From positions 1-57,197 of IMG/VR virus record IMGVR_UViG_3300025759_000110: a stretch of DNA of 57,197 bases; one strand, given 5' to 3'. Shown piece after piece: positions 4,155-53,826 of the stretch (positions are counted from its first letter, which is position 1; every line of letters begins with the position of its first letter). The position numbers and the translations under genes were made by a program. Under the pieces are notes generated by a model. The model saw only the letters and a program-made list of their open reading frames with translations, was not told where the DNA came from and did no database searches. Origin of the DNA: a virus.

Positions 4155-4163
4155 GATGCACCT

Positions 4164-4839: not shown

Positions 4840-4880
4840 CCAGCCCTCGCATATTATCGAACATTATTCGATAACATCCT
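4840..4880 (-). promoter_or_regulatory. Promoter region with a perfect palindromic operator
   Basis: A perfect inverted repeat, TTATCGAA-5-TTCGATAA, occupies 4854-4874. On the minus strand a GATAAT -10-like box sits at its left edge, followed by ATGCGA, a variant of the TGCGA element seen at other promoters here. A dimeric repressor or activator site over a promoter for the co-chaperonin/scaffold/capsid genes is the simplest reading. No good -35 is visible. Confidence 0.5.
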
Positions 4881-4896
4881 AGCATCTCTTATATGC

Positions 4897-7308: not shown

Positions 7309-7358
7309 AAAAAGCTACTCCCGTAAGACAGGAATAACTTATCACAAAATTACATAAC

Positions 7359-7562
7359 TTAGAACACGCCTTGAAACCGCTGCGGTCGGGCAATCGGGCT
7401 AAAACCCTTCACCACGCCACCTCGCGCCATACGCGTTGCCTTGTCTTCGCCAGCTTTAGACAGAGCAATCGCCACCGCTTGGTTCTGCGGATAGCCCTCA
7501 TCCTTTAGCTTAGAGATGTTGCTGCTTATCGTTTTCTGGCTTTTACCCTTTTTCAAAGGCAT
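7359..7562 (-). CDS. Small conserved phage protein
   Basis: A 67-residue protein starting at the ATG at 7562. It contains [20 protein letters not shown], a helix-turn pattern common in short late-operon phage proteins, followed by a basic Gly-rich tail. The preceding gene stops one base before its start. The function is unknown; an N-terminal Lys-rich stretch suggests nucleic acid contact. Confidence 0.7.
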
Positions 7563-7563
7563 C

Positions 7564-7731
7564 TTAGCAACCCATGTGCATGGTGCCTTTAATTGCAGCA
7601 CCCGTACCACGCGTTTTTACCTTGCGCATCTTGTCGCCAGCCATCGGAGCAGGCTTTTGCTTGCCAACCATCTCTGGCTTTGGAGCATCCTTCGGCGCAG
7701 AGCCGTTCACTTTTACTTTACGATTTTTCAT
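7564..7731 (-). CDS. Small basic protein after the portal gene
   Basis: A 55-residue Lys/Met/Pro-rich protein whose ATG overlaps the portal stop (ATGA). It ends [16 protein letters not shown]; the motif R-G-T-G-A-A-x-K-G recurs in short proteins beside portal genes in related phages as I recall them. It is probably a virion or assembly factor. Coupled start and motif support it as real; function is unknown. Confidence 0.65.
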
Positions 7732-10190: not shown

Positions 10191-10207
10191 CCGCCGCCTT
10201 TCCAAAA

Positions 10208-30391: not shown

Positions 30392-30548
30392 GCGTTATCT
30401 GTGACGGACAGTAAGCATCGGGGTGTACCACAAAGCGTCTTGGGCGCGGTGCATCCTCTGACACATAAGTACAGACTTTGACAAATGTGTTTTCTCCGTC
30501 AATCCAATAGTGGGCATAGCCCACCATTATCAAGACGTAGAGCGTCAC
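30372..30548 (-). CDS. Small hydrophobic-leader protein with two cysteines
   Basis: A 58-residue frame starting at GTG 30548, which overlaps the preceding stop (GTGA). It begins MTLYVLIMVGYAHYWIDGEN and has Cys at residues 26 and 47. Its last 20 bases overlap the 3' end of the helicase gene on the other strand. The style matches the gene at 6671-6835: possibly exported with a disulfide. Function is unknown. Confidence 0.55.
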   Translation of the reverse strand: MTLYVLIMVGYAHYWIDGENTFVKVCTYVSEDAPRPRRFVVHPDAYCPSQITLNEANL

Positions 30549-33061
30549 CCCGGCATCTCGTAAGCGGCGTATTGTTTGTAAAACTCTATGCCGCGGGCTT
30601 CTTCCTCTTCAGGCGGGCGCTGCATGATGTTGGGAATAAACGGACGTTCTTGCTTTTCTTGCTTTGGCTCCTGCATTCCAGAGAAGACGCCGCCAATGCC
30701 TGACATCAAATATTCGCTTTGTACAGGTTGCGGTGGAACATATGATTCGGTGCCAAACCCTTCTGGACGCAATCTTGGCTTCGGAGACGGCTCCTGACCT
30801 TCTTCGCGAATGTAGAAATCGTTCATGCTGGGCAGAATTTCGGCGGTATCTACGCCGTGGATCATAGCAACATAATTACGTGTTTCCTCAAAAGGAGGCA
30901 CACCGTTATATTTACGCACATTACCGGGGCCAGCATTATAAGCAGCAAGGGCCAAGGGCACTGATTGGAACGTATCGAGCTGTTGACGCAGGTAACGTGC
31001 GCCGCCACGGGCGTTTTCGATTGGAACGTTCGGGTCTACACCCAGCTCCGCTGCCGTTTGGGGCATAAGCTGCGTTAGACCGATTGCGCCAGCTTCACTG
31101 ACAGGTCCTTGGCGACCGCGGTTTTCGGTATACATGAGGCGTAGGAAAAGCTCGGGATCAACGCCTTCTTCCATAGCAATATCTACAGGATCAAAGCCGT
31201 AGTCTTCCATGACCTTGGTACGCATGTCGGTCAAGTCTTGTGGCGTAATGACGCCTACTGCTCCACCTTCAGCAAAGAAATCGTCCATGTCAGACGGTAA
31301 GCCTTGCGCCTCGTTTATCCGTGCCTGCTCCGAGGTCCGATAAGCTTCAATCTCGGCTTCTGTTCTACCCATGTCACGCATTTTCAGGATTTCGTCTTCC
31401 ATGGTGCGGTACATGTTTCTGATCCGCATGGCGTCGATTTCTTGTGTAAGATCGGACGGTGTTTCGCGGACCATGTTTAAGTTGCCGGGGTTATCAATCA
31501 TCTCGTTTCGGTAATTTAATAATGATTCCCTAGCAGAGACGGGGTCCTCGAAATCTTCAAAATATGCTCTCGCATTTGGAAATCTATCAATGCCGTTTGC
31601 ATCTTTCGCAAGGTGCATCCCACGACGTTGTACTTCCTGTGCTAATCGTACAGAATTTTCTCCATCGTCTACAAGCCGTTGATTGCCCATGATGCTTTCG
31701 TACTGAGGTTCAATAAGAGTTTCCAAAGCGTCATCCGGTATGTTCTTAACCGCTTCTGAAAACTCTTCGGGGTCCAACCCAATGATCGCATCAAATACTT
31801 CGTCGATAATTTCATATTCTGCGGTTTGTATGGCTTTATTAGCCTCATCCACAGCGGCTTTTTCATCGGGTAACATTCCACTGCTACGAGGGTTGTCTAA
31901 AACCTCGTTTACAACTGCATAACCTTCATCTATTTGACGACGAAGCTCTTTGATGTTCGCCACCGCCATATCAAGCGGGTTAATACGTGCTTTTGCCGCC
32001 GCTTTCGTTGCTTTGCCCACGGCTTCTGATGCTTCCATGACAATGTCTGGAGCAATGGCTGCAACGCCTGCCGTAGCTGCGGCACCCTTCAAGAAGGCAC
32101 GACGGCTTGGATCACCAAGTGTATCTTCAGCGACATCCTTGGTTGCACCCGTCGGTGTCAGAATGTCCATCAAAACGGCTTTTGCAGGCTGCTTGGCTGC
32201 TGCACCCATGCCAATCATGCCCACTGGCGCAAGGGTTTCTAAGGCCGCTTCAATACCTGCTTCTCTGCGTTGTTCTGGCGTAAGGCTTTCGTCAAACGCA
32301 CGACCACTGGCTGCCATACCGCGCATGATGCCTTGTGCCGGGTCTAGCGCAGAGGCCAAGTTTATAAACTGACGCCCTTTTTCCTGTAACTCAGGCGGAA
32401 TGTAGTAGCCTATACCACGACTTGTGTCTTCTACCGCTGCGGCGCGAGCTAAATCTTCTTCTGTTGGAACAGGTGGAGGAACAATACCGCCCTCATCAAA
32501 GCCCATGGCAGACGATCCAAATCCTGACATACCTGCCAAACTTACTTCTGGGTTAGACCCAAAGTTTTCACGACCCGCAGTGTAGAATTGACCGGGCGAG
32601 GACATAACAGCTTGTGCCGTCGCGCCAGCATTACCACGCCGTACAGCGCGGGCTTCAGCTTCTTTGATAAACGCATCCACGTCGCCTTGGCTAAAACCGG
32701 GGTCTTCTGGAGCAACTGGGGCTGATCCGCCTTCAAAGACAGGCGCAGTCCCTACCCACTCGCCGGGAGATGGGGCATATCCTGAATATTGATCGTAGGG
32801 CGTCGTGCGGTCAGTCTGGTTCCAAGCAGCAATGGCGTCGTTGTACGCATTAGCTTTCTCGCGCCACGCTTCCAAATCAGCGTTATATTGGTTTACCAAA
32901 GCGTTATGGGCGTCCACCTTTGCTTGATATTCGCCCGCTTGCGTTTGATACTGTCCCAACGCCTCGTTGTAGAGATTAATCCGGTTATCATAATCTTCCA
33001 TGATATTCCGGTCGTATTTGTAATACCGGGCTTCGGGTGATGCGTACTGTAAAATAGACAT
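30545..33061 (-). CDS. Internal virion protein with lytic transglycosylase domain
   Basis: An 838-residue ejection protein. The N-terminus is a Tyr/Asn/Gln-rich coiled coil (about 10-80). A small-residue region includes SRRAFLKGAAATAGVAAIAP (residues 319-338), a near-perfect twin-arginine motif. A helical middle leads to a C-terminal SLT domain (about 615-735: LMYTENRGRQGPVSEAGAIG with the catalytic Glu, LTQLMPQTA, ALAAYNAGPGNVRKYNG). It would open the peptidoglycan during DNA entry, as T7 gp16 does. A Pro-rich tail follows. Confidence 0.88.
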   Translation of the reverse strand: MSILQYASPEARYYKYDRNIMEDYDNRINLYNEALGQYQTQAGEYQAKVDAHNALVNQYNADLEAWREKANAYNDAIAAWNQTDRTTPYDQYSGYAPSPGEWVGTAPVFEGGSAPVAPEDPGFSQGDVDAFIKEAEARAVRRGNAGATAQAVMSSPGQFYTAGRENFGSNPEVSLAGMSGFGSSAMGFDEGGIVPPPVPTEEDLARAAAVEDTSRGIGYYIPPELQEKGRQFINLASALDPAQGIMRGMAASGRAFDESLTPEQRREAGIEAALETLAPVGMIGMGAAAKQPAKAVLMDILTPTGATKDVAEDTLGDPSRRAFLKGAAATAGVAAIAPDIVMEASEAVGKATKAAAKARINPLDMAVANIKELRRQIDEGYAVVNEVLDNPRSSGMLPDEKAAVDEANKAIQTAEYEIIDEVFDAIIGLDPEEFSEAVKNIPDDALETLIEPQYESIMGNQRLVDDGENSVRLAQEVQRRGMHLAKDANGIDRFPNARAYFEDFEDPVSARESLLNYRNEMIDNPGNLNMVRETPSDLTQEIDAMRIRNMYRTMEDEILKMRDMGRTEAEIEAYRTSEQARINEAQGLPSDMDDFFAEGGAVGVITPQDLTDMRTKVMEDYGFDPVDIAMEEGVDPELFLRLMYTENRGRQGPVSEAGAIGLTQLMPQTAAELGVDPNVPIENARGGARYLRQQLDTFQSVPLALAAYNAGPGNVRKYNGVPPFEETRNYVAMIHGVDTAEILPSMNDFYIREEGQEPSPKPRLRPEGFGTESYVPPQPVQSEYLMSGIGGVFSGMQEPKQEKQERPFIPNIMQRPPEEEEARGIEFYKQYAAYEMPG

Positions 33062-36000
33062 TTAACCCCTCATTAAGCTGCCGATACCAAGGAGTTCTCT
33101 GTCCTCCGGAAATAAAGCCGCGAACCGAGCCCTATCCACTGGCCCTGAAGACTGTATGGGTGGCCTTTGTGGGGCCGCAGAAGCCTGTTGGACGGGACTG
33201 GTTGCAGCTCCACCGCCCTGAGTGGGAAGTCGGGCTGGTGGAAGTAGTGACCCTTGCTGGGAACTATCGGGTAAAGCAGGAACCGTGGGCGCTGGTTCGG
33301 GAACCGGTAGCCTTTCGGGAGGCGCACCGCTACCGGGCACCTCTTGCTCCATTACGTTTTGTACGGCAGGCACTGTGCGGCGAATTGAACTCATAATGCC
33401 GTTATCGATTAATCCTTGGATTAGAGCCTGACCAATACGTTGCTGTTCCGCTTCATCTGCACCACGGCGCAAGACCGTTGCAAGAAGCTGCGGGTCTTCA
33501 ACGATTGTAGTGATGACATCCATTCGCAGCGAAGCAGGTAGCTCTGACAGGTACTGGTTTACGACGTTTTGCGCAAACTGCGAACCTGCTTGGCGAGCAA
33601 TCAAGCTTTGTGTACTGCCGCTCATCATACGTTGACCCAATGCACCAAGCTCAGAACCTGAGATACGTGTTGCCAACATAAATAGTGGGCCGACCTGTTG
33701 CGCAAACTCTTCAATTTCGCCCGGTTTGGCGCGAGAGGAGAAGGCTTGGATTTGTGCCATGCGGCCTAGCAAACGACGTGTACGGGCAATGTCGCCCTCA
33801 CTCATAATACCGCGTTCGACCATCCAGTCTGCCAAAACAACATCGTTTGGCGAGTTCGGATGAGGTTCAAACATGGTGCGATAAGCGGACTCAATGTCGA
33901 AGATTGGGCCGTTTTCACCAGCGCGGTTAAAGACGCTGTCCATAATGGAGCGACGGAACCCGTTAATCAGCTCTTGTTTGCTGAAAGTCTGACCTGCAAG
34001 GGGACCGCTTGTGACAGAGAAACCTTCGTCTCCCATATTGTCTACATAAGCCCAGAGGTCGTTTAGATCAGCAAATGGACGCTCGTTTGTTAGCGAGATA
34101 GCACGAGAAACCTGCGTTGCAGGGTTCATTGTCTTGTCTGGCAGTAATTCATACAAACTTAGGATGCCACGACGACGGGTGGCGTCCATCTGACCCGCTT
34201 CTTCTGTTGTTCTTGTCAGAAGCTGACGGGCGGTGCCTATGTTTTCCAAGTCCATCTTGAGTGCAGGCATTGCATCCAATAGACGGGCATTGTCTGGACG
34301 GGCCATCCAACGGCGCAGAGCATCAACATTTAGAGTTTTGCTTTCTGGATCAAGGGCCGCTTGCCGTGCAGAACGGAGCAGCATCTCTGAAGCACCACGA
34401 ATGTCCGCATTTGCGGTAATCATTTCCGTTAGGTTTTCACGAAGCCCCGGAATAGCGTCGATTGCTGCCGAATTGTCATCAAACCAAGAATTAAACGCTT
34501 GGCGGTCAATCATGCGCGTTTGAGGGTCAATAACGCCTGCGCCTGTTGCAGCTTCAAGCAGTGCCTGTCCCGCTGGGCGGTCCCCTTCGCTAAGTAAGGT
34601 AGTTAAAGCAGTACCAAACTGCGCTTGACCAATCATATCTAGCTGTTGCGCTCGCAGATAACCTGCGTCACCAGAGAACATACGGTTTGCAAGCACCCCT
34701 ACAGGAACCGCGGGTGCCCCTGTTTTGCGTGTGCCAAGAACATCACCTGCATACATGCGTGTAAATACGTCGTTGTACGCTCGGCTGTAAGCACGGGCAT
34801 TGTCGTATGCCGCGTTTGCACCTTCTGGGAAAGAGTCGAGGTCCGCGAGCAATGCTTCGGCAAACTCGTATGCAATCCGCGCTTTATCCTGACGACCCGC
34901 CGCTGATAGTTCACGACCCGCTTGTAGAGCAGTATTCCGCATTGCGAAGATTTCAGATGCGTTCAAACCGCCCGTAGGAGCGGGTGTTCCGTCCATCGCG
35001 GGCTGTTGTGTCTGTGCAATAAGCAGTTCTGCCTGACGATCTAGTGCGTTCGCGTAATCGCGACTACGTGGCGTAGACAAACGACCGCGGTTTGAGCTTG
35101 CTTCCTGACGCAGACGACGCACAATTTCTTCTGTGCTACTGTCAAACTGGTCAGTCTTTAAACTTTCCATTAAAGTATTGAAGCGGTCGCCAAAAGTGGT
35201 GCCGTCAATCTTCAAGAAGGCGGCATCAAAGCGAGTTTGCTCTGGTAGAACGGCTCCTCCGCCATCACCATTGCCACCAAAGCCCGGAAGACCCAGCTCT
35301 TGCCCCTTACGGCGTACAAAGTCGTCAATGTCACGCAGCTCTGGAACACGTAAGATAGGATTACGCGCTTCTGGCATACTTTCATCGGGCATCAAATTCA
35401 TCCACTCACGGATGAAGTTTGGTGTATCTGAAGCATTGCCGTTTAGGTCGATAAACTCGTCAATTTCTATATTTTGTGGAATTTGTTTCCACAACGAACG
35501 CTCTTGTGTACGCATCGCACGTTGTTGCGCACTTAGAACTTCGATCAGACGTTCTGCGCTTTCAAGGTTATCGGCGTCTGCGCCCACTGTTCGCATGTTT
35601 TCTTGCAAACGGTTGGTTGCAGCTTGAATTTGACCTGTAAGTTCAGCGTCCCAAAGAGCTGTTTGTACATTCGCCAGCTCACCAAGCGCCTGACGGTCGC
35701 CGTTGGCATACATAAACAGAATGCCGCGACGCAGCGCATCAACAGCTTTTTGCTGGTTAGATTGACCAGTCCCTGTTCCGCCTTGTGTGCCGCGCTCCAT
35801 CTGCAAACGCAGCAATGTGGGGCTGCCTGTAAGCTCTGCGGCACTAAGCTGGATAGGATTACCCGTTTCATCAACTAAGAACTGAGCAAAATCGTCAGAA
35901 GTAAGCAAATCAATGACCGCTTGTGGGTCTTCACCGTTCGCTTCCAACTGCGTCAGCAAGTAATCGGCAGCATCCGCCATCTGAGCGTCGGTTAACGCGC

Positions 36001-37054
36001 CCTGTGCGTTTGCAGCATTATTTGAGCGATACCGTCTAATTAAGTTAACAATACCGTCTTTTGCCAAGCGGATAGCTTGTGGCACACGTTGGAAAGCAGC
36101 ATCGCCAACCAAACCGCCGCCAACACCGCCTACTAACTCTGCACCAAAGCGCACATAAGGGTCGCCCGGAGAGACCTCTTCGGCACCATAAGCTGCGCCA
36201 CCTGTTCCAACGACGGATGTTAGTTCCGCACCAACAAGACCTGTTTGCGCCAGCGCCCCTTGTTGCCCTCTCGCAACACCTCCAACACGCTCAAGGCTGC
36301 TTTCAATACCGCGGACAAGACGCGTGGACCGCGGTGCGACCACATCGGCTGCCAGATTGTCCAATACGGCCCGTGCGCCAAGGTTTACTTTGTTTCCGAT
36401 AAGAAACGGCATCGGCAAGAACGCCAAAGCGCCCATGGTCGATTTACCAGACTCAAACGCTGCGGCGGTGCCCGGAACAAACGTCGGTTCTGGACCAACA
36501 AGCGCCTCTTGTGCAGTGCGGGTTGCCCAATCACCAAAGATTGCGCCTCCAACACCAGTTATAATAGGAACACCAATGCGAACTGCGGCAGTCCATGGTG
36601 TGACAGGAGGAACGCCTGCAACGGCAAGGTTACCTGCTTTCATACCTGCATAAAAACCGGTAGCGGCACCTCCGGCAGGAGCTACTTCACGCGCAAAACC
36701 TTCCCAGAAACCGCCGCCTTCTTGGATCGGACGCCCTTCGGCGTCACGGGCAAATAAAGAGATGATTTGAGCGTCTGTCAGACCGCGGCCCTGTTCAATG
36801 CCTAGATCACGTAAAACACCCGCGTCTCCAGTACGCAAAGCGTCATAATTTAGGTAATTACCACCACGATCTTGAATGCGAGCATCGCGTGAAAGTGTGT
36901 TGGTAAGCATACGGGCAAACCCCGGTACGGGGTCGCCCTCTGTTCTTAGAACATCTACTACCTCTTGGAACTCGTCCCGACCAAAAGTTGCTCGGGGTAT
37001 AAAGAGTTCGTCAGTAGCGGGGACTGTGTTGTCTGGAGTGTTTTCATCAGCCAT
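33062..37054 (-). CDS. Very large internal virion (ejection) protein
   Basis: A 1330-residue protein. Residues about 125-215 are Gly/Ala/hydrophobic and could insert in membrane (PAGGAATGFYAGMKAGNLAV, VRIGVPIITGVGGAIFGDW). The rest is long, charged and helical, and the last ~90 residues are Pro/Ala/Gln-rich and disordered. Size, composition and place beside the transglycosylase protein fit an ejection protein such as T7 gp15/gp16 counterparts. No enzyme motif is recognised. Confidence 0.78.
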   Translation of the reverse strand: MADENTPDNTVPATDELFIPRATFGRDEFQEVVDVLRTEGDPVPGFARMLTNTLSRDARIQDRGGNYLNYDALRTGDAGVLRDLGIEQGRGLTDAQIISLFARDAEGRPIQEGGGFWEGFAREVAPAGGAATGFYAGMKAGNLAVAGVPPVTPWTAAVRIGVPIITGVGGAIFGDWATRTAQEALVGPEPTFVPGTAAAFESGKSTMGALAFLPMPFLIGNKVNLGARAVLDNLAADVVAPRSTRLVRGIESSLERVGGVARGQQGALAQTGLVGAELTSVVGTGGAAYGAEEVSPGDPYVRFGAELVGGVGGGLVGDAAFQRVPQAIRLAKDGIVNLIRRYRSNNAANAQGALTDAQMADAADYLLTQLEANGEDPQAVIDLLTSDDFAQFLVDETGNPIQLSAAELTGSPTLLRLQMERGTQGGTGTGQSNQQKAVDALRRGILFMYANGDRQALGELANVQTALWDAELTGQIQAATNRLQENMRTVGADADNLESAERLIEVLSAQQRAMRTQERSLWKQIPQNIEIDEFIDLNGNASDTPNFIREWMNLMPDESMPEARNPILRVPELRDIDDFVRRKGQELGLPGFGGNGDGGGAVLPEQTRFDAAFLKIDGTTFGDRFNTLMESLKTDQFDSSTEEIVRRLRQEASSNRGRLSTPRSRDYANALDRQAELLIAQTQQPAMDGTPAPTGGLNASEIFAMRNTALQAGRELSAAGRQDKARIAYEFAEALLADLDSFPEGANAAYDNARAYSRAYNDVFTRMYAGDVLGTRKTGAPAVPVGVLANRMFSGDAGYLRAQQLDMIGQAQFGTALTTLLSEGDRPAGQALLEAATGAGVIDPQTRMIDRQAFNSWFDDNSAAIDAIPGLRENLTEMITANADIRGASEMLLRSARQAALDPESKTLNVDALRRWMARPDNARLLDAMPALKMDLENIGTARQLLTRTTEEAGQMDATRRRGILSLYELLPDKTMNPATQVSRAISLTNERPFADLNDLWAYVDNMGDEGFSVTSGPLAGQTFSKQELINGFRRSIMDSVFNRAGENGPIFDIESAYRTMFEPHPNSPNDVVLADWMVERGIMSEGDIARTRRLLGRMAQIQAFSSRAKPGEIEEFAQQVGPLFMLATRISGSELGALGQRMMSGSTQSLIARQAGSQFAQNVVNQYLSELPASLRMDVITTIVEDPQLLATVLRRGADEAEQQRIGQALIQGLIDNGIMSSIRRTVPAVQNVMEQEVPGSGAPPERLPVPEPAPTVPALPDSSQQGSLLPPARLPTQGGGAATSPVQQASAAPQRPPIQSSGPVDRARFAALFPEDRELLGIGSLMRG

Positions 37055-37057: not shown

Positions 37058-39985
37058 TTAGTTCCCCTGTCCAGTCGCTCGGTTCATAATTTCCTGCGCT
37101 CTTTCCAAATCTGCGGCATTTGCAGTTGTTGAAAGTGTTAGGATTGGGCCAAGCAGACCTTCCAAGCGTTCGATTTCAAACAATTTCTGGCTAAGAGTGC
37201 TGTTAAGCGCACTGTCGATAGGCGTACCGCTTGCACGAAGTGTAAGAATACGCGCTTTTTCTGTGCGCAGCTCTTCTGCCAAACGAGTAAGTTTGCGAGC
37301 TTCCGTTTCTGGGTTGCGGAAGAAGGCGCGTTCGTCTGGGAACAACTGTGCGGTTGTTTCCAAATCTGCGACCGCAAAACGAGGCGATGCAGATAGAGCC
37401 GAACGACCAAATACTCGAACCATTTCGATGTACTGACGGGCATCCTGAGTATCGCGGAACATTTCGCTGAAATACTGCGGAGCAATCGTACCACCGATAA
37501 GACCGTCGATACCCGCATACACCTTGGACCAGAAACCAGTACCCAAACGTGCTTGACGCAGTGCGTCGCGGACGTTGGCCTTTGTTTCTTGGCTCAGTGG
37601 GTTGCCTTCCGCATCTGTCATGCCGCCAACAAGGTCACTTTCCATTGCATCCAAGGCTTCTTGCGCACCCGCGCTGACGCGAGCGTTGCGGTTAACTTCG
37701 TAAGCAATGGTGTTAGACACCTCAAAGCCGTTTGACGGAATGGCATGTTGAACACCGTTGGTATCTGTAAAGGTCCGACCGCCGTCATAACTTGTGTAGA
37801 CGCCGCTTTCGTAGCCTTCACCCGCTGGAACATAAAAGCCACGAGGCGTGATATCTTCTGTACCAAGACGGAACATTGTGGCTGTACCCGGCGTTGCAGA
37901 GTTAAGACGGTTAACATCCGCCACAACCGCCTGCCCTTCAGGTGTTTTGATGTCCACAACACGTGTAATCGGCTGACCTTGAGCATTTGGCATCGTGACG
38001 CGGAAGTATGACGGCGTGACAGAGACGTCACGATCCAAGATATTCATGGTTTCGCCAGTGCGCTCGTTAATCCGAACGACTGTAACGCTGCCATCCTCAC
38101 CTTGAAGCGTTTCAAAGCGATAATCGGGGTCAATACCAAGGAGAACCTGACGATCTTCAAGCTCCAAGGCTTCAAAACCGTTGCGGTCCATACCAAACTT
38201 GCCAAAGTAATCGCGGTCCGTAAGGACAGGAAGACCCTGCAAGTATTGTTTCTGGGTATCATCTAACGCGTTAAAGGCCGCTTCGTTCATACCAAAGCGG
38301 TTGAAGTAATCGCGGTCACTAATCGGAGCAGTATATGCGGTGTAAGCATCTGCGCCATAATTATTAGCGATTGAATTACGTTCCATTGTGGTCAAGTTCG
38401 GTGAAGAACCTGCGCGATATGTGCGGTTACCGATGGTTACATCCATTGTAAGCGTTACCTGCTCACGATCTGTACCCATGCGTGTTAGCTGATCCGCACT
38501 CATGCTGCTTAGACGCAAGCCACCCGCTCTCAAGACATTGTCATAATAAGCAGTACCGGGAACCGCGGCTGTTTGGCTACCGTCCGCTAGTACAAAGTTT
38601 TCTGCACTTTGCGGCGTTGCACTGACATCACCCATGGCGTTTCCGCCCGCTGCGATAATGTCCATATATGCTTGTGTTCCGGGGATCGCGGTCCGTATGC
38701 TACCGTCTGGCATCTGGAAATTTTCCGCCTTTTGCGGAGTGGTAGAAGTTGACGGAATTGCACGAATAGTTACGTTTTCTTCGCCATATGTGCTGTAAAG
38801 CTCTTCTAGCTGATTACGGGTCAAGGGCCGTGTGCCAAGGCTTCTGGTTACAGGCGTACCATCTACTGTTTCCGTAACGGCAACAGAGTAGATATCACCA
38901 ATATCCTTCTCTCCCGCAGCTAATTCGGCCTGACGCTCGGCAGAATACAGGCTTTGTGAGCCTTGTAGTGCCGCTAAATCAAGCTGACGTTGTTCTGCTT
39001 TTTGAGCTTGCTTGAATTTACCAAACTCGCCAGCCCGCGCCCCGATATTACCAAGAACAGGTGTAAAGGCTGATGCCAAACGCTGCGCTGGGGATTCACC
39101 CGGTTGACCCGGAGACGCAAACGCTAGGCCGCCTTGAGCAATGTCGAACAGCATTTGGGCTTGTGTAAGACTACGTTGCTCTTCGAGGTCCGCAGCGCGG
39201 TCCGTTGGGTCGAAGAGCTGTCCGTACAAAGCGCGTTGCTGCTCAAAGAGTTCTTGTTGACGTGCGTTAGGCAGGGCGACGCCGCCCGGTTGCATATACT
39301 GAACCGCGCCGCCTTGGTTAAAATTTACAGGTGCTGGGCCTCCTTGACCCGGCATCATTTCTTCTTGTGGCATATTAACCGTGGACATGATCCCGCCCGC
39401 CATATCGCCTTGTACTGGCGTATTCATCGCTTCGGGTGCCACGCTGCCGATGCCTTGATCGACCAAGGCTACCTGCATGATTGGCTGAACCAAAGTTAGA
39501 ACCGACTCTGGGGTTTGTGCCGCATCGGCATCCCCAACAATCCCAGCAAGCTCTTGGCGTCTCTCTTGTAGAGGTGCCTGATCGCCTCGGATCGTGTTGA
39601 TGATCTGTTCGTAATCTTCGGTTTCCGCCGCTGCATCCAAATTACCAAAAGAACCAGCGGCTTGCTGGAGCATTGATTCGAGGACCGCGGGGTCTATCCC
39701 TTGTTGCATTGCGCCCGCTGCGGCTGCGTCCATCGGCATGTCCTGTGGAACAGGAAGACCTGCCGCAGAAGGAGATGGGGGCATTCCCATACCGCCGGGA
39801 GGAGCTGGGGGAGGTGGCATTTGTGCGGCAGCCATCATTGGGTCGCCGCCTGCTTGCATGGGAATAACACCCCGACCCATCAGGATGTCCTTCTGGGTTA
39901 CTTTGTTGTCGCCACTCAGGTCAGGAAATCTAGCGGCACCGCCGTTCCTAAACATCTGACGATCCATTACGCCTCTATTCATCAT
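37058..39985 (-). CDS. Large internal virion protein with calcium-loop N-terminus and internal repeats
   Basis: A 975-residue protein. Residues 22-33 (DLSGDNKVTQKD) fit a dockerin/EF-hand calcium loop. A Met/Pro/Ala/Gly-rich stretch follows (about 45-110). In the middle are two pairs of repeats: one pair built on PQxAENF...DGS...PGT and one on DRDYFxxFGM...FxAL. The C-terminal part is helical. It is probably ejected or part of the inner tail. Structural role is from position and composition. Confidence 0.75.
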   Translation of the reverse strand: MMNRGVMDRQMFRNGGAARFPDLSGDNKVTQKDILMGRGVIPMQAGGDPMMAAAQMPPPPAPPGGMGMPPSPSAAGLPVPQDMPMDAAAAGAMQQGIDPAVLESMLQQAAGSFGNLDAAAETEDYEQIINTIRGDQAPLQERRQELAGIVGDADAAQTPESVLTLVQPIMQVALVDQGIGSVAPEAMNTPVQGDMAGGIMSTVNMPQEEMMPGQGGPAPVNFNQGGAVQYMQPGGVALPNARQQELFEQQRALYGQLFDPTDRAADLEEQRSLTQAQMLFDIAQGGLAFASPGQPGESPAQRLASAFTPVLGNIGARAGEFGKFKQAQKAEQRQLDLAALQGSQSLYSAERQAELAAGEKDIGDIYSVAVTETVDGTPVTRSLGTRPLTRNQLEELYSTYGEENVTIRAIPSTSTTPQKAENFQMPDGSIRTAIPGTQAYMDIIAAGGNAMGDVSATPQSAENFVLADGSQTAAVPGTAYYDNVLRAGGLRLSSMSADQLTRMGTDREQVTLTMDVTIGNRTYRAGSSPNLTTMERNSIANNYGADAYTAYTAPISDRDYFNRFGMNEAAFNALDDTQKQYLQGLPVLTDRDYFGKFGMDRNGFEALELEDRQVLLGIDPDYRFETLQGEDGSVTVVRINERTGETMNILDRDVSVTPSYFRVTMPNAQGQPITRVVDIKTPEGQAVVADVNRLNSATPGTATMFRLGTEDITPRGFYVPAGEGYESGVYTSYDGGRTFTDTNGVQHAIPSNGFEVSNTIAYEVNRNARVSAGAQEALDAMESDLVGGMTDAEGNPLSQETKANVRDALRQARLGTGFWSKVYAGIDGLIGGTIAPQYFSEMFRDTQDARQYIEMVRVFGRSALSASPRFAVADLETTAQLFPDERAFFRNPETEARKLTRLAEELRTEKARILTLRASGTPIDSALNSTLSQKLFEIERLEGLLGPILTLSTTANAADLERAQEIMNRATGQGN

Positions 39986-41874
39986 CCAAATAACCCCGCT
40001 TTCTGTGCGCCGCCGTAAGCCGACAGACCTGCTATGCCAAGACCCAAGATTTGCTGGGCAGGCGATGCTGTTGGTGCAGTGGTGCCAGTAATACTTTGTT
40101 GAGACGATGGAGCGCCTTTATAAATATCTGACAAGAAACCCACACGTTGATATGGTTCGTAAAGTTGCTGCAACTGTGTCTGGCGTTGTGCTTCCAGAGT
40201 TGCTTGCTGTTGAGCTTGTTGCTGTTTGCCCAGATCGAACAAGAACCCTTGCTCGCGCTGACCCATTTGCTGCCCAAGTTCGCCAAGCGACGCTTGACGT
40301 AGACCAAGCGTACCAAGCGCCTCGCCTTGTGCCAGACCAAGCTGACCGTATTGTGCGCCAAGACCGCCAATACCTTGGCCCAAACGACCAAGAGCTTCCT
40401 GACCCGCCAGACCAAGTTGGCCCGCGGCTTGTGAGCCTTGTACGCCAAGTCCGGCTTGCGCCTGACCCAACTGACCCGCTTGCAAACCAAGCTGTCCAGC
40501 CAATTGTTCGGCACCGATGCCCATTTGACCAGCCTGACCAGCAATCTGAGCCTGTGTTTGTGCGCCCTGAAGACCTAACTGACCAGATTGACCCGCTAAC
40601 TGACCCGCTAACTGAGCTGCGTTCATGCCTGTAGAGGCAGCCAATTGCTCAATATTCATGCCCGTTTGTGCCAAAGCCTGCGCATTTGCGGCAGCCATCT
40701 GCTCACCAGATAACCCAAGCTGACCCGCAACCTGTGCCGCCTGAATACCCTGCGCACCCGCTGCTTGAGCGGCCTGAATACCAGCCTGTGCGCCTTGTGC
40801 GCCAAGTGCCCCAGTAAGTTGTGCCGCTTGCTGACCACGCGCTTGTTGGGTTTCATAAGCCTGCTGTGCGCGTTGCGCGGCGCTTTCAAAGCCCGCCTGA
40901 CGCATCTGCGCTGCCGTCCGCCCTTGCTGTTCAAGGATGTTACGGCCTAATTCTTGTTCCGCTACGGCTTGACGAGAACCGCCAAATGCGCCCGCACCAA
41001 CCGCTTGCGCTCCAACCTGTTGTTGCTGAATATCACCCGCGCGTTGAATATCCTGAAGGGCTTGCTGCACCGCGGCATCTTCATAAGCACTCATAAACGG
41101 GCTAATTTGACCCGGATCAAAGCGTTCAGTTGTGCCTTCTAAGCCAGCAATACCGGTTAATGCAGCACCTGTACCCAAAGCACCCGCCTGACGCAGAGCT
41201 TCTGCGGCACCCGCTGCACTTCCAAGAGCGCCTTGGCCCATCGCACCGTATGTACGTGCGCCTTCGGTAGCCGTTCCAAGCTGACCCGCAAGAGTTTGAC
41301 CAACCCCTGCTCCGCCAAGAGCTGCGCGGTCCGCGACTTGTTGTCCGATGCCCGCGGCAAGACCCATACCGGTCTGCGCTTCAGTAACTTGTCCGGGTAT
41401 TTGATCGTATGCGCGAAGCTGATCTGCCATAGACTGAGCGGCAATGTCCCGTGCGCCTTGGGCCGCGCCTGACATAGCACCTGTCGCGGTTTCTACACCC
41501 TGCGCACCGTAGCCTAAATTAGCTGCAATACCTTCTTGTGCGGCAGTAATCTGGCCCGGGATGTTCTGAATGCCCGTTTCCATGGCTCCGAGGGCCGCGG
41601 TCTGGTAAGGAACCGCCCCTGCCATAACACCGCCAAGAGCGGTTTGGGCATCACCAAGCGTATATCCTGCTTCTTGTAAGTATGGTTGGTATCCACCAAC
41701 CCCTGCCGCTGCGAGTTCGCCCGCAGTGACCTGCAATTGCGACATATCCGCCACGAGTTGTGGCGGAATGGTTATGCCTTGGTCTGCTAATGCCTTCGCG
41801 GATTGTAAGAGGCCAATTTTATAGGCTTCAATATCCGGGGCTTCGCGGACTATCTGTTCGGTAACTTCAGACAT
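39982..41874 (-). CDS. Alanine/glycine/glutamine-rich internal virion protein
   Basis: A 630-residue protein dominated by Ala, Gly, Gln and Leu with irregular repeats of LAGQLGLQGAQ and QAAQ type (about 60-540), which should form long amphipathic helices. Similar low-complexity helical proteins are part of podovirus inner cores. The C-terminus (PAQQILGLGIAGLSAYGGAQ) could touch membrane. It overlaps its neighbours by 1-4 bases. Family is not recognised beyond this. Confidence 0.72.
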   Translation of the reverse strand: MSEVTEQIVREAPDIEAYKIGLLQSAKALADQGITIPPQLVADMSQLQVTAGELAAAGVGGYQPYLQEAGYTLGDAQTALGGVMAGAVPYQTAALGAMETGIQNIPGQITAAQEGIAANLGYGAQGVETATGAMSGAAQGARDIAAQSMADQLRAYDQIPGQVTEAQTGMGLAAGIGQQVADRAALGGAGVGQTLAGQLGTATEGARTYGAMGQGALGSAAGAAEALRQAGALGTGAALTGIAGLEGTTERFDPGQISPFMSAYEDAAVQQALQDIQRAGDIQQQQVGAQAVGAGAFGGSRQAVAEQELGRNILEQQGRTAAQMRQAGFESAAQRAQQAYETQQARGQQAAQLTGALGAQGAQAGIQAAQAAGAQGIQAAQVAGQLGLSGEQMAAANAQALAQTGMNIEQLAASTGMNAAQLAGQLAGQSGQLGLQGAQTQAQIAGQAGQMGIGAEQLAGQLGLQAGQLGQAQAGLGVQGSQAAGQLGLAGQEALGRLGQGIGGLGAQYGQLGLAQGEALGTLGLRQASLGELGQQMGQREQGFLFDLGKQQQAQQQATLEAQRQTQLQQLYEPYQRVGFLSDIYKGAPSSQQSITGTTAPTASPAQQILGLGIAGLSAYGGAQKAGLFG

Positions 41875-43796
41875 TAAGCCATGGCCCTCCCGCGGCTTTC
41901 CAGATTACGCATGACCGAGTACATGTTCTGGATGCCATTGTTTAGGTTTCCGTTCCCCAAGCCGCGTACTGCGTCTGTCGTCATGACAAACTCACCCGGC
42001 ATGAGCATTGCGCGGACACTGTCCTGCCCCGGAATACCCTCATTGGGCATGATGCCGCCATTGCGGCGCGGGAAAATCTCGCCACCTTCCGCAGCATACT
42101 GAACAGGCCGTGCAAACGGTCCGCCCGGTGTACTACCTTGAAGGAAGTATTGGTTAGGATTGTAAGTAAATTGTGTTGGCACGTTGTAAGTATCGTAGTT
42201 TGGCGCTCGGATCGTCAGATCGTTAAGTGCCCCTACTGAATAACTGTCACGAGGCACGTATTCACCAGTGTTTGGATCAAGAACCACACTGCCTAGATCG
42301 CCGACTAGGTACTTGCTTGGATCAGCCGCTACCAAATCTTCACCCGTAATAACGTTGCCATCTGCGTCACGCTCTGCAATCCCTAGCTCTTCGGCTGGAA
42401 TTGGCTCAAATGCGCCTGCGGCAGTCGCTGCGGTCAAGCCCGCGGTTGCCAATGGTGCATATGTGCGCAAGAAGCCCGGTCCAAGAGACGAGGCTGTTAC
42501 ACCTTCCGCGGCTTTTGCAGCAACCTGTGTGGCAAGAGAGGGATCGATGCCTTGTGAAATTTGCTGACCAAAGGTTGTTCTCGCTGTATTTGCTTGCGCA
42601 GCGGCAACTTGATCTGCCGTTGGACCCGCTGGGAAGAACGCATCTTTCATGCCTTGTGTAAAGCTTATGTCGTCGCCCGGAGTAAGTGCGCCTCGAAGAC
42701 TTTCTGTAAAGCTCGGAGGTTCGTAAGTCGGAACAGTAGGCGCTGTTGTTGGATTTACTGTCGCACCTGCTGGAATTTGTCCGCCAGAAGGTATTGTAGC
42801 TGTTTGACCGGTGGTCAATGTTACATCTACTGGACTTCCTGTGTTGTTCAAACGCGCTACTGCGGTATCCGCGTTTCTAAGAGCCTCTGTTGCGGTCGCT
42901 TGTGAAGGCGTTTGTGACGTTACAGCGTCGTCGATTACATCTGGAGGCGCATCTCTAGTTGAAATACGAACATTATCAGCGACCGCAGCTTCAGTTGGAA
43001 CATATTCGCTAAAGAAGGTCTGTTTGCCAGCGTTAGCTGCTTGAGCTGCTTCGCCGCCAAAGACATTGGAAAGCGACGTTTGTGCGCCAGAAACAGTCTG
43101 ACCAAAACGACCAATCGGGTCAGCCAGACCAGACTGTACGTTTTCTAAGAATTTACCGGGTCCTGTGAAGCCTTGGAATACCGCGCCAGTTGCACCCGCA
43201 ACCAATGCTGACTTCAAAGCGTCCTTAATAGAACCGCCTTGGATAAGTGTACCAATGCCTGAACCAAGAGCTGCACCGTAAATAGGTCCGAGAGGCGTGA
43301 ACGACAAAGCGATAGGAAGGATAACGGGGGCAACCTTCTTGACCACTTTAACGACCGACTTAACGATTTTCTTTACGGCATTACCAACTTTCTTAAAAAT
43401 CTTTTTTATAAACTTAAAAAATTCGGGAGCGCCTGTTTCAGGGTTAATGCTGTTTGCATCCGAGCCAACAACGTAACGTTCAGGGTCCTCGACGCCCGCT
43501 TCACGTAGTTTTTGAAAAATTGCTTCTTTAAACTCAGGATCGTCTTTAAAGAAGTCGGCAGGAATAACAAGCTCACCAGTTTGAACGTGAGCAATAGTAT
43601 CGTCACCCTCGCGGCCCATTGCCGCCATTTTCTTTGTCAAAGCAGGGAACTGGGCAATGCCCTCATCGCCGTATTCTTCTACGCCGTCATCATCGTCACC
43701 GTATGCCGCTTCGAGTTCGTCATCATCCATGACGAAGTTGCCAATACCACCGTCGGGAACGGTTAACTCTTCAATTTGTTCTGCTTCTAATGCCAT
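41874..43796 (-). CDS. Virion protein with a cationic amphipathic helix
   Basis: A 640-residue protein. An acidic N-terminus leads to DTIAHVQTGELVIPADFF, then to residues 126-155, a run of Phe/Ile/Val alternating with Lys (FFKFIKKIFKKVGNAVKKIV ...), then a hydrophobic small-residue stretch. The C-terminus (GEIFPRRNGGIMPNEGIPGQ, LMPGEFVMTTDAVRGLGNGN) is typical of tape-measure or ejection proteins. The cationic helix looks membrane-active, like antimicrobial peptides. A membrane-penetrating ejection role is inferred. Confidence 0.75.
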   Translation of the reverse strand: MALEAEQIEELTVPDGGIGNFVMDDDELEAAYGDDDDGVEEYGDEGIAQFPALTKKMAAMGREGDDTIAHVQTGELVIPADFFKDDPEFKEAIFQKLREAGVEDPERYVVGSDANSINPETGAPEFFKFIKKIFKKVGNAVKKIVKSVVKVVKKVAPVILPIALSFTPLGPIYGAALGSGIGTLIQGGSIKDALKSALVAGATGAVFQGFTGPGKFLENVQSGLADPIGRFGQTVSGAQTSLSNVFGGEAAQAANAGKQTFFSEYVPTEAAVADNVRISTRDAPPDVIDDAVTSQTPSQATATEALRNADTAVARLNNTGSPVDVTLTTGQTATIPSGGQIPAGATVNPTTAPTVPTYEPPSFTESLRGALTPGDDISFTQGMKDAFFPAGPTADQVAAAQANTARTTFGQQISQGIDPSLATQVAAKAAEGVTASSLGPGFLRTYAPLATAGLTAATAAGAFEPIPAEELGIAERDADGNVITGEDLVAADPSKYLVGDLGSVVLDPNTGEYVPRDSYSVGALNDLTIRAPNYDTYNVPTQFTYNPNQYFLQGSTPGGPFARPVQYAAEGGEIFPRRNGGIMPNEGIPGQDSVRAMLMPGEFVMTTDAVRGLGNGNLNNGIQNMYSVMRNLESRGRAMA

Positions 43797-44029
43797 TATC
43801 CCGCTCCACCAGTGATACCTTGCGGCATGGTTACGTTAATAATTGTACTTCGCTTTTCTCCTCCAGTCCATGAAGAACCGCACTGTGGGCAATTCCCGTC
43901 TGGGTAAGATGCTATTTCTTCAGGTGTATCCACCTCATTACTACATGTAACACAATGCACCACATCTCGGCTAGTAGAAGGATGCCATTTACTGCCATCA
44001 GGCATAGTAATTACTGTATTTTCACTCAT
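43796..44029 (-). CDS. Zinc-ribbon small virion-operon protein
   Basis: A 77-residue protein with CVTC and CPQC 22 residues apart, a zinc ribbon, and flanking beta-rich sequence (ITMPDGSKWHPSTS; IINVTMPQGITGG). Zinc ribbons in late operons may stabilise small tail proteins. Its stop and start overlap neighbours. Function is not known. Confidence 0.72.
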   Translation of the reverse strand: MSENTVITMPDGSKWHPSTSRDVVHCVTCSNEVDTPEEIASYPDGNCPQCGSSWTGGEKRSTIINVTMPQGITGGAG

Positions 44030-44322
44030 GATGTTGTTACCGTGACGTCTCCCACGGCCCCCGTTGCTTGCTGACCACGAACATGAGGCGTGTCAGCAAG
44101 CGTGATTTTTACGAATCCATCTTGCTGAAATAGAGCGCCAGTCTCTAATCCGCTATCGTCAGTCTGTAGGTTGGTTAATACCAGTTGCGTGTGTCTCCCC
44201 TCACCCGGGTTCTGCATATTCTCCAAATATGTAGAGAAAGAACGCACTAACTCTGCAAAATATTGTTGAGTATATTCACCGGGAGGTATCGGGAAGAACG
44301 GACGAACTAGGTTTCTTGACAT
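44026..44322 (-). CDS. Small tail-module protein
   Basis: A 98-residue protein (FFPIPPGEYTQQYFAELVRS helix, then a beta region GALFQQDGFVKITLADTP). It ends in QATGAVGDVTVTTS, the same short beta motif repeated in the LamG protein and near the end of the 101-residue neck protein. A role as a linker or tail-tube accessory is inferred. Confidence 0.68.
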   Translation of the reverse strand: MSRNLVRPFFPIPPGEYTQQYFAELVRSFSTYLENMQNPGEGRHTQLVLTNLQTDDSGLETGALFQQDGFVKITLADTPHVRGQQATGAVGDVTVTTS

Positions 44323-46439
44323 TAACGTCTCCCATCTGGACGAACATCAAGACGTGGCGAGCCAAGCCGCCAAGCAATACCCGTATCGGTCGTTTCAATA
44401 CGGAATGCAAACGATCTGCCACGCAAACGTAAGTGAACTTGATCGGTAAACTGTTCAACAGGCACAGAAGCCGTCTTTTCTATAGTCGAAGCCGTGCTAT
44501 TGGCATATGCATCACCCGGGAAATTACGCATTTTGACCGTCATACTGGCCCCCGGCGTCTCATTCGTACTGTCTCTGAACGTCAAATCAGGCACAATCCT
44601 GCGCACAAACGCAAAGTTATCACCCTCGCCAATATCTAACTGACTGCTCTCAATATAGGACGTAATTGCCGACGCTGGATTGGTCGAACCGTCGTCCAAA
44701 CCAAACTCCTGATAGTAAAGCGCGTGGTCCGTGGACGCCGCAACGGGATACGCGTCCACCCCGCGGTCCAACCAACATGTACGGGAAAGCGTACCGTAGT
44801 ACCAAATCTGTTGCTGGTAGTTGTAAACCACATAACGGTCATTTTCAGTGCTATTCGCTGACGGATAGAACCACCAAACTTCAGAATATGCCGTGTTTGT
44901 CGCAGCCGTAACCTTGTCAATCTGACCTTCGTTAAAGTCACTAAACACATAGTCGCGGACCGTGCATGGCAAACGCTGTACCGTACCGCCATAGACGTAG
45001 AACTCTTCCGCGCCCATCCAAAACACGTTGTCTTCCACAGAAACCGCGGCAAGTGGCCCCGCAATCGTAATGTTTTCCGACACCAAGTTAATGCCGAAGG
45101 TGAAGGGTGGTCCCAAATACTGCATTGCGTGTAGCGAAACGTCGGTAAACACAAGGATTTGCTGGCGCGTTTCAATCGCGTTAACAATCTCGGACCCCGA
45201 ACCTAACCGAAGGTCACCAGCGGTGTTTGTCGCTTGTGCAGCCCAAACCAACGGGTTCTCTTGGTCAGAGAACCGGATTAACAAAGGGTCTTGTGTGCCA
45301 ATGTCGTTTTCAGGATCGCAACCAAAAGCAATAATGTGTCTGTCGCGGTCTGAAACCAAAACCTTTTTGGCAATTGTCGGCGTTGTACTGTCCGCACCCG
45401 CCAAATCTTTTAGCTCAACAGCGCGTGTGGTCAAACCGTTGGTTTTATCCCAGTAGTAAATGCCGCCGTCGCGCACATTAATAAGCAGGTCTTCACCAAA
45501 GTTATCGTGCGACCAAATACGCAATGTCGAACCTTGTACAGCCAAAGACGCGCCCGAACCCCACGTGCCACGTGCCCAAGTGCCTGCGCCCCAGCCCGTA
45601 CCTGTAACCGTGGTGTCCAAACCAGACTGGATTTGATACGTGCCAACAACAGAAGCTCCGCCATTACCCGTGTCAGAAGCCGTCGCAAAGACGTAAGTTG
45701 GCGTATAGCCCGTTGTTGTTGTTATTGAGTTCAGTGTTGCCACTTCACGCGCTTCGACCAAGTAGGTGTCATTGTCTACAACGTGACTAATCTGGTATTC
45801 TTGGTTCAAGATGTCGGCGGTTATAGCGTCGCCAAGCGTTGTAGCTCCGCTAAACGTTACAAAGTCATTATCCTCTGCACCGTGGGCCGTGTCTGATATA
45901 GCGATGGTCGCGCACTTTACGGCGTCACCACTTGTGTGCGCTGCGGCGTCCGTGCCATTAAAACCACGCTCCAAGCCTACCAAATCACTACCGCTAATTG
46001 CAGCGTAGCGAATAACTTCGTCGTTAATCTTAATAACGCCTGTTTCAGGAAACCCGGTAGAACTTGTCAGTGTGAGCATTGTGTCGGCAATACTGACGTT
46101 TCCGTTCAAAGTATTAGCTGCCGCGGCGAACGTTACGTCGCCCGCAGAAGTCGTTGCACGAATGGGCGTAATATCGGAATACCCGCCACCTTCGTTAATG
46201 TAATACTTCAGGTGCGTACCAACGCCCAGATACCGCGAACCGTCGAGCGCGACCCACGGGTGTAAAGCGCGGCATGTACCTAAGTGAAAGGTGGCGGAAG
46301 TTTTCTCCCAGCCACCTATTTTTTCAGGGAAGCCAAAACGAAACCGTACCTTGTCACAGTCAAACCAACCACCCTCGTTACTATACGAGGTGGTTTCTCG
46401 GTTAACACCGGGGCGGAATTGCAACTTGGTAAACGGCAT
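44322..46439 (-). CDS. Tail nozzle/needle-hub protein (P22 gp10 / T7 gp12-like)
   Basis: A 705-residue mostly beta protein. It opens with PGVNRETTSYSNEGGWFDCD and KVRFRFGFPEKIGGWE, a signature of podovirus tail nozzle proteins, and has WHP-like blades, an inserted Ig/fibronectin-like part (about 90-220) and the core EEFYVYGGTVQRLPCTVRDY. It forms the distal tail tube to which fibres bind. It lies with gp4-like and gp11-like neck genes nearby. Family assignment is good. Confidence 0.85.
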   Translation of the reverse strand: MPFTKLQFRPGVNRETTSYSNEGGWFDCDKVRFRFGFPEKIGGWEKTSATFHLGTCRALHPWVALDGSRYLGVGTHLKYYINEGGGYSDITPIRATTSAGDVTFAAAANTLNGNVSIADTMLTLTSSTGFPETGVIKINDEVIRYAAISGSDLVGLERGFNGTDAAAHTSGDAVKCATIAISDTAHGAEDNDFVTFSGATTLGDAITADILNQEYQISHVVDNDTYLVEAREVATLNSITTTTGYTPTYVFATASDTGNGGASVVGTYQIQSGLDTTVTGTGWGAGTWARGTWGSGASLAVQGSTLRIWSHDNFGEDLLINVRDGGIYYWDKTNGLTTRAVELKDLAGADSTTPTIAKKVLVSDRDRHIIAFGCDPENDIGTQDPLLIRFSDQENPLVWAAQATNTAGDLRLGSGSEIVNAIETRQQILVFTDVSLHAMQYLGPPFTFGINLVSENITIAGPLAAVSVEDNVFWMGAEEFYVYGGTVQRLPCTVRDYVFSDFNEGQIDKVTAATNTAYSEVWWFYPSANSTENDRYVVYNYQQQIWYYGTLSRTCWLDRGVDAYPVAASTDHALYYQEFGLDDGSTNPASAITSYIESSQLDIGEGDNFAFVRRIVPDLTFRDSTNETPGASMTVKMRNFPGDAYANSTASTIEKTASVPVEQFTDQVHLRLRGRSFAFRIETTDTGIAWRLGSPRLDVRPDGRR

Positions 46440-53175: not shown

Positions 53176-53826
53176 TTACTGTTTCGGCCTAATTACCTTT
53201 CCAGTTCTGTACTCGTCGGTAACCTCTTTAGATTCGCCGAACATCTTCAGTCCAGTGATCGCTTCCGCAAAACGCTTCTCATATTGCGCCATTACGTCCT
53301 GCTCACCCTTCATATAGATATACGCTTCAATCAACGAACCGTATAACAACGCTAACTCTGCATTTTCACTCAACCAAGTGGTGCCAGAACCCGATCCAGC
53401 GGTCAAACTAGCTGGTCTATAGAAATAATGCAGCTCTACAGCGTAACTTGAGTCCGGTGTCGGCCCCAAAACGAAGTTATCAATGTCAAAAACCGCGTAA
53501 TAACGCGGATTCCCCGTCGTGGTGGCGTCTGGATTGAAAGATTGGACGAAATCTACGTCTTTAAAATCCAAAAACACGTGATCGCTGTCCGAATTAACAA
53601 AAGAAAGCGAATATGGAGCCAAAAAGTCGCTCGGACAAGCCAAATACTTGTTAGAAGACGTCATATTGCCACTAACATTCTTCCGAAACAGGCTTAATTG
53701 CACATTTTTAAGAATGCGCTCCTCCGCCTGACGGATAAACAACGGCAAATTGTTCACAAAAGACGTTTCGTCGTTCTCTGTGTAGTCCTGAATGGCCTGT
53801 TTTAGTTCATCGTATGTAAAGCTCAT
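53176..53826 (-). CDS. Tail adaptor protein, gp11-like
   Basis: A 216-residue protein (YDELKQAIQDYTENDETSFV, LPLFIRQAEERILKNVQLS, YLACPSDFLAPYSLSF, VELHYFYRPASL). This is the helical-bundle plus beta-domain layout of T7 gp11/P22-type adaptor proteins linking the portal to the tail nozzle. It overlaps the 101-residue gene by 4 bases. Assignment is from pattern and gene order. Confidence 0.78.
   Translation of the reverse strand: MSFTYDELKQAIQDYTENDETSFVNNLPLFIRQAEERILKNVQLSLFRKNVSGNMTSSNKYLACPSDFLAPYSLSFVNSDSDHVFLDFKDVDFVQSFNPDATTTGNPRYYAVFDIDNFVLGPTPDSSYAVELHYFYRPASLTAGSGSGTTWLSENAELALLYGSLIEAYIYMKGEQDVMAQYEKRFAEAITGLKMFGESKEVTDEYRTGKVIRPKQ

Follow-up and report, generated by a model that had tools for sequence, protein, structure and literature searches.

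Judged by sequence, the closest known counterpart of the helix described here is the N-terminus of gp7.3 of phage T7 (PF11653, phrog_1320), an ejected tail-channel protein. In the published account of the T7 structure, gp7.3 is attached to the nozzle through six C-terminal loops, K84 and K85 touch the DNA end, and density surrounding the DNA is attributed to the positively charged N-terminus, which is unresolved; the protein is described as ejected, and it is proposed to leave first (PMC11784390). Tape measure proteins of long-tailed phages offer a second point of comparison: their C-terminus lies at the tail tip, as reported for the siphophages T5 (PMC11313276) and TP901-1 (PMC5099701), the hydrophobic regions of the TP901-1 protein, as putative membrane domains, have been examined by deleting them (PMC5099701), and the tape measure protein of phage 80alpha is reported to be mostly positive inside the tail (PMC11661146). 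Among podovirus-like systems, five ejection proteins have been described for SU10, one of them with transglycosylase activity (PMC9509320), and the HTVC023P-type pelagiphages have been described as Podoviridae (PMC9599517).

Here we examine a 640-residue protein of an uncultured virus in which a cationic amphipathic helix is followed by a long greasy stretch, a combination that looks like the part of the protein that touches the membrane of the host, or else the end of the DNA, at infection. A literature search found no description of gp7.3 or of tape measures as carrying an amphipathic helix, nor, among the papers listed, of "cationic amphipathic" ejection proteins, and as far as that search covers, the helix is undescribed in print.

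The 640-residue protein and its genomic neighbourhood

The window, by which we mean the whole stretch of DNA analysed, covers one virus record (G000) of 57,197 bases. The genome has profile matches for portal, large terminase, major head protein, DNA polymerase, helicase and primase, and the features that concern us are these:

41874..43796, minus strand: 640-residue helix-bearing protein, putatively a tail or ejection protein by synteny and profiles
43422..43670, minus strand: conserved N-terminal region, residues 43-125, with invariant alignment columns
43329..43418, minus strand: cationic amphipathic helix, residues 127-156, by moment, conservation and AlphaFold prediction (pLDDT mostly <50)
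43227..43325, minus strand: uncharged hydrophobic Gly-rich tract past an AP motif, residues 158-190, by hydropathy
41943..42074, minus strand: C-terminal tape-measure-like motif (GEFV region), residues 575-618, by PHROG profiles
44322..46439, minus strand: nozzle protein (phrog_3287), upstream of the 640-residue gene with two small genes between
53176..53826, minus strand: adaptor-like protein (phage adaptor 7z47_A, 7.6e-4)
39982..41874, minus strand: 630-residue Ala/Gly/Gln-rich neighbour, putative ejection protein by synteny
37058..39985, minus strand: 975-residue neighbour, putative ejection protein by synteny
33062..37054, minus strand: 1330-residue neighbour, putative ejection protein (counterpart in DSL-LC04 annotated as DNA transfer protein)
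30545..33061, minus strand: 838-residue protein with a transglycosylase SLT domain (PF01464, 3.7e-18), putative ejection protein
7728-10205: portal gene

The nozzle assignment is accompanied by matches to PDB nozzles (8zkm_E, 1.1e-7; 8zkk_O, 2.3e-7) and by one to 9nwi_Y (5e-13), deposited under the name "capsid and scaffold protein"; the structure matched by the adaptor-like protein, 7z47_A, we take to be the SU10 adaptor. A PHROGs scan of 29 window proteins gave no major tail protein. The nozzle and adaptor match short-tailed phages, and by homology with them the virus is probably podovirus-like. Past the nozzle gene come the two small genes, the 640-residue protein and then the proteins of 630, 975, 1330 and 838 residues, so that the gene lies within a post-nozzle block that includes an SLT-bearing gene, as podovirus ejection genes do. 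SU10 likewise has a gene run after the nozzle with one transglycosylase gene, a likeness of layout that is suggestive and does not amount to homology. In PDB searches the 630- and 975-residue neighbours had no match and the 1330-residue neighbour no relevant one. The 640-residue product is a putative virion protein by synteny and profiles.

Several other features of this region were observed. A 1446-residue fibre with many short repeats (46961-51301) has 9-13 stretches matching virion and tail-spike profiles, and the protein at 51313-52710 has a Laminin-G/concanavalin-like domain (PF13385, 4.1e-18) and also matches baseplate-wedge profiles. Directly upstream of the 640-residue gene, a 77-residue protein (43796-44029) has Cys pairs and weak zinc-ribbon matches; a zinc ribbon protein is likewise annotated in the tail block of DSL-LC04. 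The SLT protein (30545-33061) carries a mid-protein match resembling a TAT signal (residues 318-337, 20.8 bits, below cut-off), probably by chance.

Relatives were collected from IMG/VR, where a single-sequence query yielded 12 relatives among 19 pattern matches and an alignment query 277 among 446, of which 80 were kept. The full-length set comprises 63 unique ORFs whose match starts at or before query residue 60 and ends at or after 600; it includes L001, identical to the window protein, and leaves out L010 and L011 (broken frame), L020 (truncated), L072 and L075 (matched no further than 266) and duplicates. In L010 and L011, contigs from one metagenome, the homologue's frame is broken at about 6534, just past the start of the hydrophobic tract. 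Among loci with room, on contigs that are partly redundant, the nozzle gene lies upstream in 59 of 59 and the 630-residue gene downstream in 63 of 66. Bacterial genome contigs gave 55 pattern matches and no relative. A search of annotated phage records with the window protein gave DSL-LC04 alone, matched at its C-terminus; a diverged member as query adds 023Pt_psg01 and HTVC027P, and the proteins found at E 0.1-0.9 are mostly annotated tape measure. The helix segment alone had no match among phage records at E up to 10.

The cationic helix and the tract behind it

Residues 126-166, encoded exactly by 43299-43421 on the minus strand, had been described from the letters as Lys pairs alternating with Phe, Ile and Val before the sequence becomes hydrophobic, and this is what the protein contains: an F, then a 30-residue stretch that includes 11 Lys and lacks acidic residues, the AP motif, and an uncharged run that lasts to Lys191. 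The hydrophobic moment of the helix is 0.77-0.78, against 0.20-0.21 in shuffles of the same residues (z 5.6-5.7), and among the 15,474 windows of 26 residues in the 56 non-overlapping ORFs of the stretch it ranks first at 0.82 (mean 0.185, s.d. 0.103), the runner-up having a moment of 0.71 but two acidic residues. DNA of low complexity or skewed base composition was considered as a cause of the helix and ruled out by the GC content of 49.6% and the mixed Lys codons (7 AAG, 4 AAA). The HeliQuest-type D exceeds 1.34 in all 63 relatives and is at most 1.05 in the rest of the window protein. On Wimley-White values and assuming a helical structure, the interfacial energy of the helix is favourable, with a median of -5.3 kcal/mol.

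The pattern is kept throughout the family. In 63 of 63 full-length proteins the segment has no Asp or Glu and a median of 10 Lys/Arg, its moment has a z of 3.4 to 6.4 and its best angle is 96-100 degrees. Of the 550 Lys/Arg in the 55 distinct segments, 547 lie on the polar half and 3 on the apolar one, and 634 of 668 Ile/Leu/Val/Phe/Met/Trp fall in the apolar half, leaving 34 in the polar (the halves being defined by each helix's own moment, some of this excess is built in); the hydrophobic residues form an unbroken greasy face.

Segment length varies from 17 to 43 among the 63 proteins, and it varies in steps. Measured from the KK to the Pro in the 55 segments, the spacing is 26 in 28 of them, 33 in 10, 22 in 8 and 29 in 2, with 7 distorted or short (classes 15 and 4); the 4 segments of spacing 4, and the two of the three in class 15 that are measured from a later dibasic, are artefacts of the anchor rule, since a Lys stands ahead of the first dibasic in them. 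The main spacings differ by 3, 4, 7 and 11 residues. Simulated deletions of these sizes retain 0.89-1.01 of the moment and keep the helical phase, as against 0.19-0.53 for deletions of 2, 5, 6 or 9 residues and 0.64-0.81 for 1, 8 or 10. The steps thus match what is expected of a helix changing only in near-whole turns, the separate length changes being fewer than the segment counts because relatives are not independent. Purifying selection holds the helix, since pN/pS over its codons is 0.00-0.40 (55 pairs listed, from 11 of 12 coding sequences; the window's own helix, without a partner of equal length, is in none of the pairs).

Following the Pro come 28-36 uncharged residues (median 33) in 63 of 63 proteins, and the protein-wide KD19 maximum falls within -13 to +17 residues of that Pro, again in all 63. 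This maximum is a moderate 1.58 in the window protein and exceeds 1.6 in 49 of the 63, and the tract is interrupted by Pro and Gly. Its interfacial energy in the window, -16.2 kcal/mol on the same Wimley-White values with a helix assumed, is more favourable than that of the cationic helix. Helix and tract together give weak matches to profiles of tape measures and of a "membrane protein" kind (phrog_991, 2.5e-4; phrog_167, 0.003; phrog_1272; phrog_38045).

Structure prediction places helices at residues 127-134 and 145-165 in the AlphaFold full model and a single long helix at 127-163 in the domain model, with further helices past the cationic part at about 170-185 and 190-211. Over the cationic part pLDDT is mostly below 50 in both models (the 220-residue domain model has a mean of 53), and the models neither prove exposure of the helix nor show its burial. 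Burial in a soluble fold had been named in the preliminary description as one outcome that would tell against its reading; the prediction of a helix with no confident burying fold around it is in keeping with that reading, as low-confidence and hence weak evidence. Among the matches listed in a PDB structure search the best Z was 6.2, on residues 391-439, with values below 3 around the helix; a BFVD structure search gave nothing at E <=0.001, and a PDB profile search with the family gave only matches at E >0.07, none to a phage protein.

Comparison with gp7.3, tape measures and pelagiphage proteins

The 640-residue protein and gp7.3 share a cationic amphipathic helix of similar period and charge, followed in T7 gp7.3 too by a Pro and a Gly/Ala-rich run; the moment is 0.78 in the window and 0.75-0.79 in gp7.3 sequences, T7 gp7.3 itself having 0.79. 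PF11653 scores 12.4 bits on the window protein (E 0.24), missing its cut-off of 25 bits, and matches 13 of the 63 members at E up to 1 (best 3.7e-4), while HHalign of the family alignment A3 with eight gp7.3 sequences gives a probability of 71.7 over 20 columns. A gp7.3 HMM applied to 62 of the 63 segments, located by pattern, averaged 11.9 bits (41 over 10), against -0.3 bits for helix-shuffled controls (0 of 310 over 10) and 6.6 bits for class-preserving shuffles (44 of 310 over 10), and the likeness to gp7.3 thus depends on residue order. Twenty aligned columns are too few to decide between homology and convergence; the 640-residue protein perhaps works like gp7.3. There are clear differences: gp7.3 has 99 residues, its helix is N-terminal and not internal, and it is without the 33-residue hydrophobic tract; and its gene lies near the portal gene, whereas the 640-residue gene follows the nozzle with the portal far off at 7728-10205. 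In being a virion protein on the tail side, anchored there by its C-terminus, gp7.3 is probably again like our protein, for which such an anchor is suggested by the tape-measure-like motif. As observed by eye, the length of the gp7.3 helix before the conserved Pro in T7 relatives shifts by 3-4 residues between L180, L183 and L184 and L088.

That motif (residues 575-620) matches phrog_934 (5.8e-6) and phrog_37649 (2.2e-4) in the window protein, and among the 63 members it is matched by phrog_37649 in 61, phrog_5448 in 56 and phrog_934 in 46. The siphophage tape measures of these three PHROGs resemble the 640-residue protein in their C-terminal GEFV-type motif and hydrophobic segments, but the latter is short and its genome has an adaptor and nozzle of podovirus type; three long tape measures examined had no helix with a moment of at least 0.5. 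Since the tape measure C-terminus of siphophages sits at the tail tip, the corresponding C-terminus here probably docks the protein in the tail. LysM occurs in 7 of 63 members (best 4.5e-13), lying in L006 at 287-329, past the hydrophobic tract but ahead of the C-terminal motif, and suggests contact with peptidoglycan in some members. An internal repeat, suspected by eye from an N-terminal TGELVIP and the C-terminal PGEFVM, was rejected when HHalign of the two parts gave a probability of 0.4.

Through the C-terminus the family is also related to pelagiphage proteins (HHalign probability 98, E 2.5e-13). DSL-LC04 is syntenic, with a nozzle gene, the homologue of the 640-residue protein (annotated tail tape measure protein) and the 630-, 975- and 1330-residue genes. 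Both this protein and the HTVC023P-type protein (HTVC027P gp82) have the homologous C-terminus, a position downstream of the nozzle gene and a cationic helix followed by a hydrophobic Gly-rich tract; the HTVC027P version differs in having the helix near its N-terminus, without the long N-terminal domain. The pelagiphage set consists of 60 unique complete ORFs reaching the C-terminus, from 76 matched ORFs; of the 9 DSL-LC04-type ORFs 2 were taken. Of the 60 HTVC027P-type proteins, 58 have a 22-residue window with a net charge of at least +5 and a moment of at least 0.5 (L150 and L151 fall below), as against 19 of 226 when the other ORFs of those contigs are taken in any frame. In DSL-LC04 and two relatives the helix is weaker (moment 0.57-0.61), and 023Pt_psg01, a distant relative by its C-terminus, has no window of net +5. 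Loss of amphipathicity in homologues, which the preliminary description had also named as telling against its reading, is not what the relatives show: the charge pattern and amphipathicity are kept in all 63 close relatives and in 58 of the 60 from pelagiphages, with 023Pt_psg01 as the one distant exception.

Other phage proteins were surveyed as well. T7 gp6.7, gp14, gp15 and gp16 and SU10 gp20-24 have no such helix at a moment of at least 0.5, and T7 gp13 reaches 0.58 with two acidic residues; T7 gp14-16 and SU10 gp20-24 being reported core or ejection proteins, the helix does not mark ejection proteins in general. In the cyanophage L190, adjoining proteins near the baseplate hub gene (3035-5014 and 5015-7372) have cationic amphipathic helices (moment at least 0.5) that precede hydrophobic stretches, and one of the two proteins has a GEFV motif.

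Possible roles at infection

We tentatively favour, at a probability of about 0.48, the reading that residues 127-190 serve an ejected tail protein as its envelope-penetration module. From the observations above we infer that the 640-residue protein is present in the virion, is ejected, contacts a membrane and forms a channel. It would reside in a podovirus-like tail, probably docked there by its C-terminus of tape-measure kind, and be ejected at infection; its cationic helix would then rest on an anionic face of a host membrane, most likely the inner membrane, or else on LPS or the outer membrane, with the hydrophobic side down and the Lys side turned to lipid head groups or passing DNA, and would place the uncharged Gly-rich tract beside it so that this inserts and helps to form or prop a DNA-entry channel. 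The preliminary description had likewise supposed an ejection protein whose helix might breach the membrane or line such a channel; the helix beside its hydrophobic tract is real and conserved and the tail or ejection assignment agrees with gene order and profiles, while the breaching itself goes no further than the probability just given. Its "antimicrobial peptide" is a resemblance in the cationic amphipathic helix and not a finding.

What argues for envelope penetration is that the helix is free of acidic residues in 63 of 63 proteins, with z at least 3.4, an unbroken greasy face and phase-keeping lengths, and that every member runs on into an uncharged tract that is the protein's hydrophobicity peak; the HeliQuest-type D, the tape-measure and "membrane protein" profile matches, LysM and the nozzle synteny point the same way, as do the TP901-1 hydrophobic regions regarded as putative membrane domains (PMC5099701). 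Hydropathy is moderate, however, the tract is broken by Pro and Gly, AlphaFold confidence over the helix is largely below 50, and the helix is absent from T7 gp14/15/16, SU10 gp20-24 and 023Pt_psg01, with 2 of 60 pelagiphage proteins below threshold. The likeness to gp7.3 points equally to DNA binding, and by analogy with T7 it suggests that holding the DNA end or nozzle in the tail channel is an equally natural role. On that account, our second choice and one we consider possible but rather unlikely, several copies would sit in the tail channel with their C-termini held by nozzle or adaptor, their cationic helices ringing the DNA end and their greasy faces packed between copies, and would leave first at ejection. 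It draws on the nozzle anchoring, DNA-end contacts and ejection reported for T7 gp7.3 (PMC11784390), on the shared kind of helix with its Pro and Gly/Ala run, on the HHalign value of 71.7, the order-dependent HMM scores and the PF11653 matches in 13 of 63, and on the mostly positive tape measure inside the 80alpha tail (PMC11661146); yet the PF11653 score of 12.4 bits falls short of the 25-bit cut-off, protein size and gene position differ, and a DNA clamp has no need of a strict Ile/Val/Phe face or a 33-residue uncharged tract. Envelope insertion and clamping of the DNA end could be successive stages of one protein.

Two further roles carry less weight. The hydrophobic face might instead make a helical bundle with an 11-residue period, through which the protein is assembled in the head core or tail, with Lys serving only solubility or contact with packaged DNA; the best angle of 96-100 degrees, near 11/3 residues per turn, and the neighbouring helices at residues 170-211 of the full-length model would suit this, but a soluble bundle would not usually lack acidic partners, as 63 of 63 segments do, prediction yields no bundle with confidence, and among the matches listed no fold matches there at Z >=3, and we regard this role as improbable. 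Very improbable is a stand-alone membrane-lytic killing domain of antimicrobial-peptide type: composition and moment resemble those of cationic lytic helices and one of the 63 members touches Pfam Antimicrobial_3 (E 0.045), but the helix lies inside a large conserved protein beside tail-assembly features, and such a domain leaves the conserved adjoining tract and C-terminus unexplained.

Returning to the envelope-penetration reading, we add the speculation, itself unlikely, that helix and Gly-rich tract are a mobile "first-contact" module for opening the envelope, one that always arrives ahead of the DNA end or together with it and is common to otherwise different tail-borne proteins, namely those of the uncultured podovirus family, the pelagiphage family, T7 gp7.3 and the cyanophage baseplate-hub region. 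The helix family occurs in phages related to abundant marine ones, its peptide is open to direct testing, and a large family with a phase-locked helix and tract provides a natural alignment for the question of membrane versus DNA. The finding bears on how short-tailed phages first breach the envelope, a step for which the T7 structure leaves the charged N-terminus of gp7.3 unresolved.
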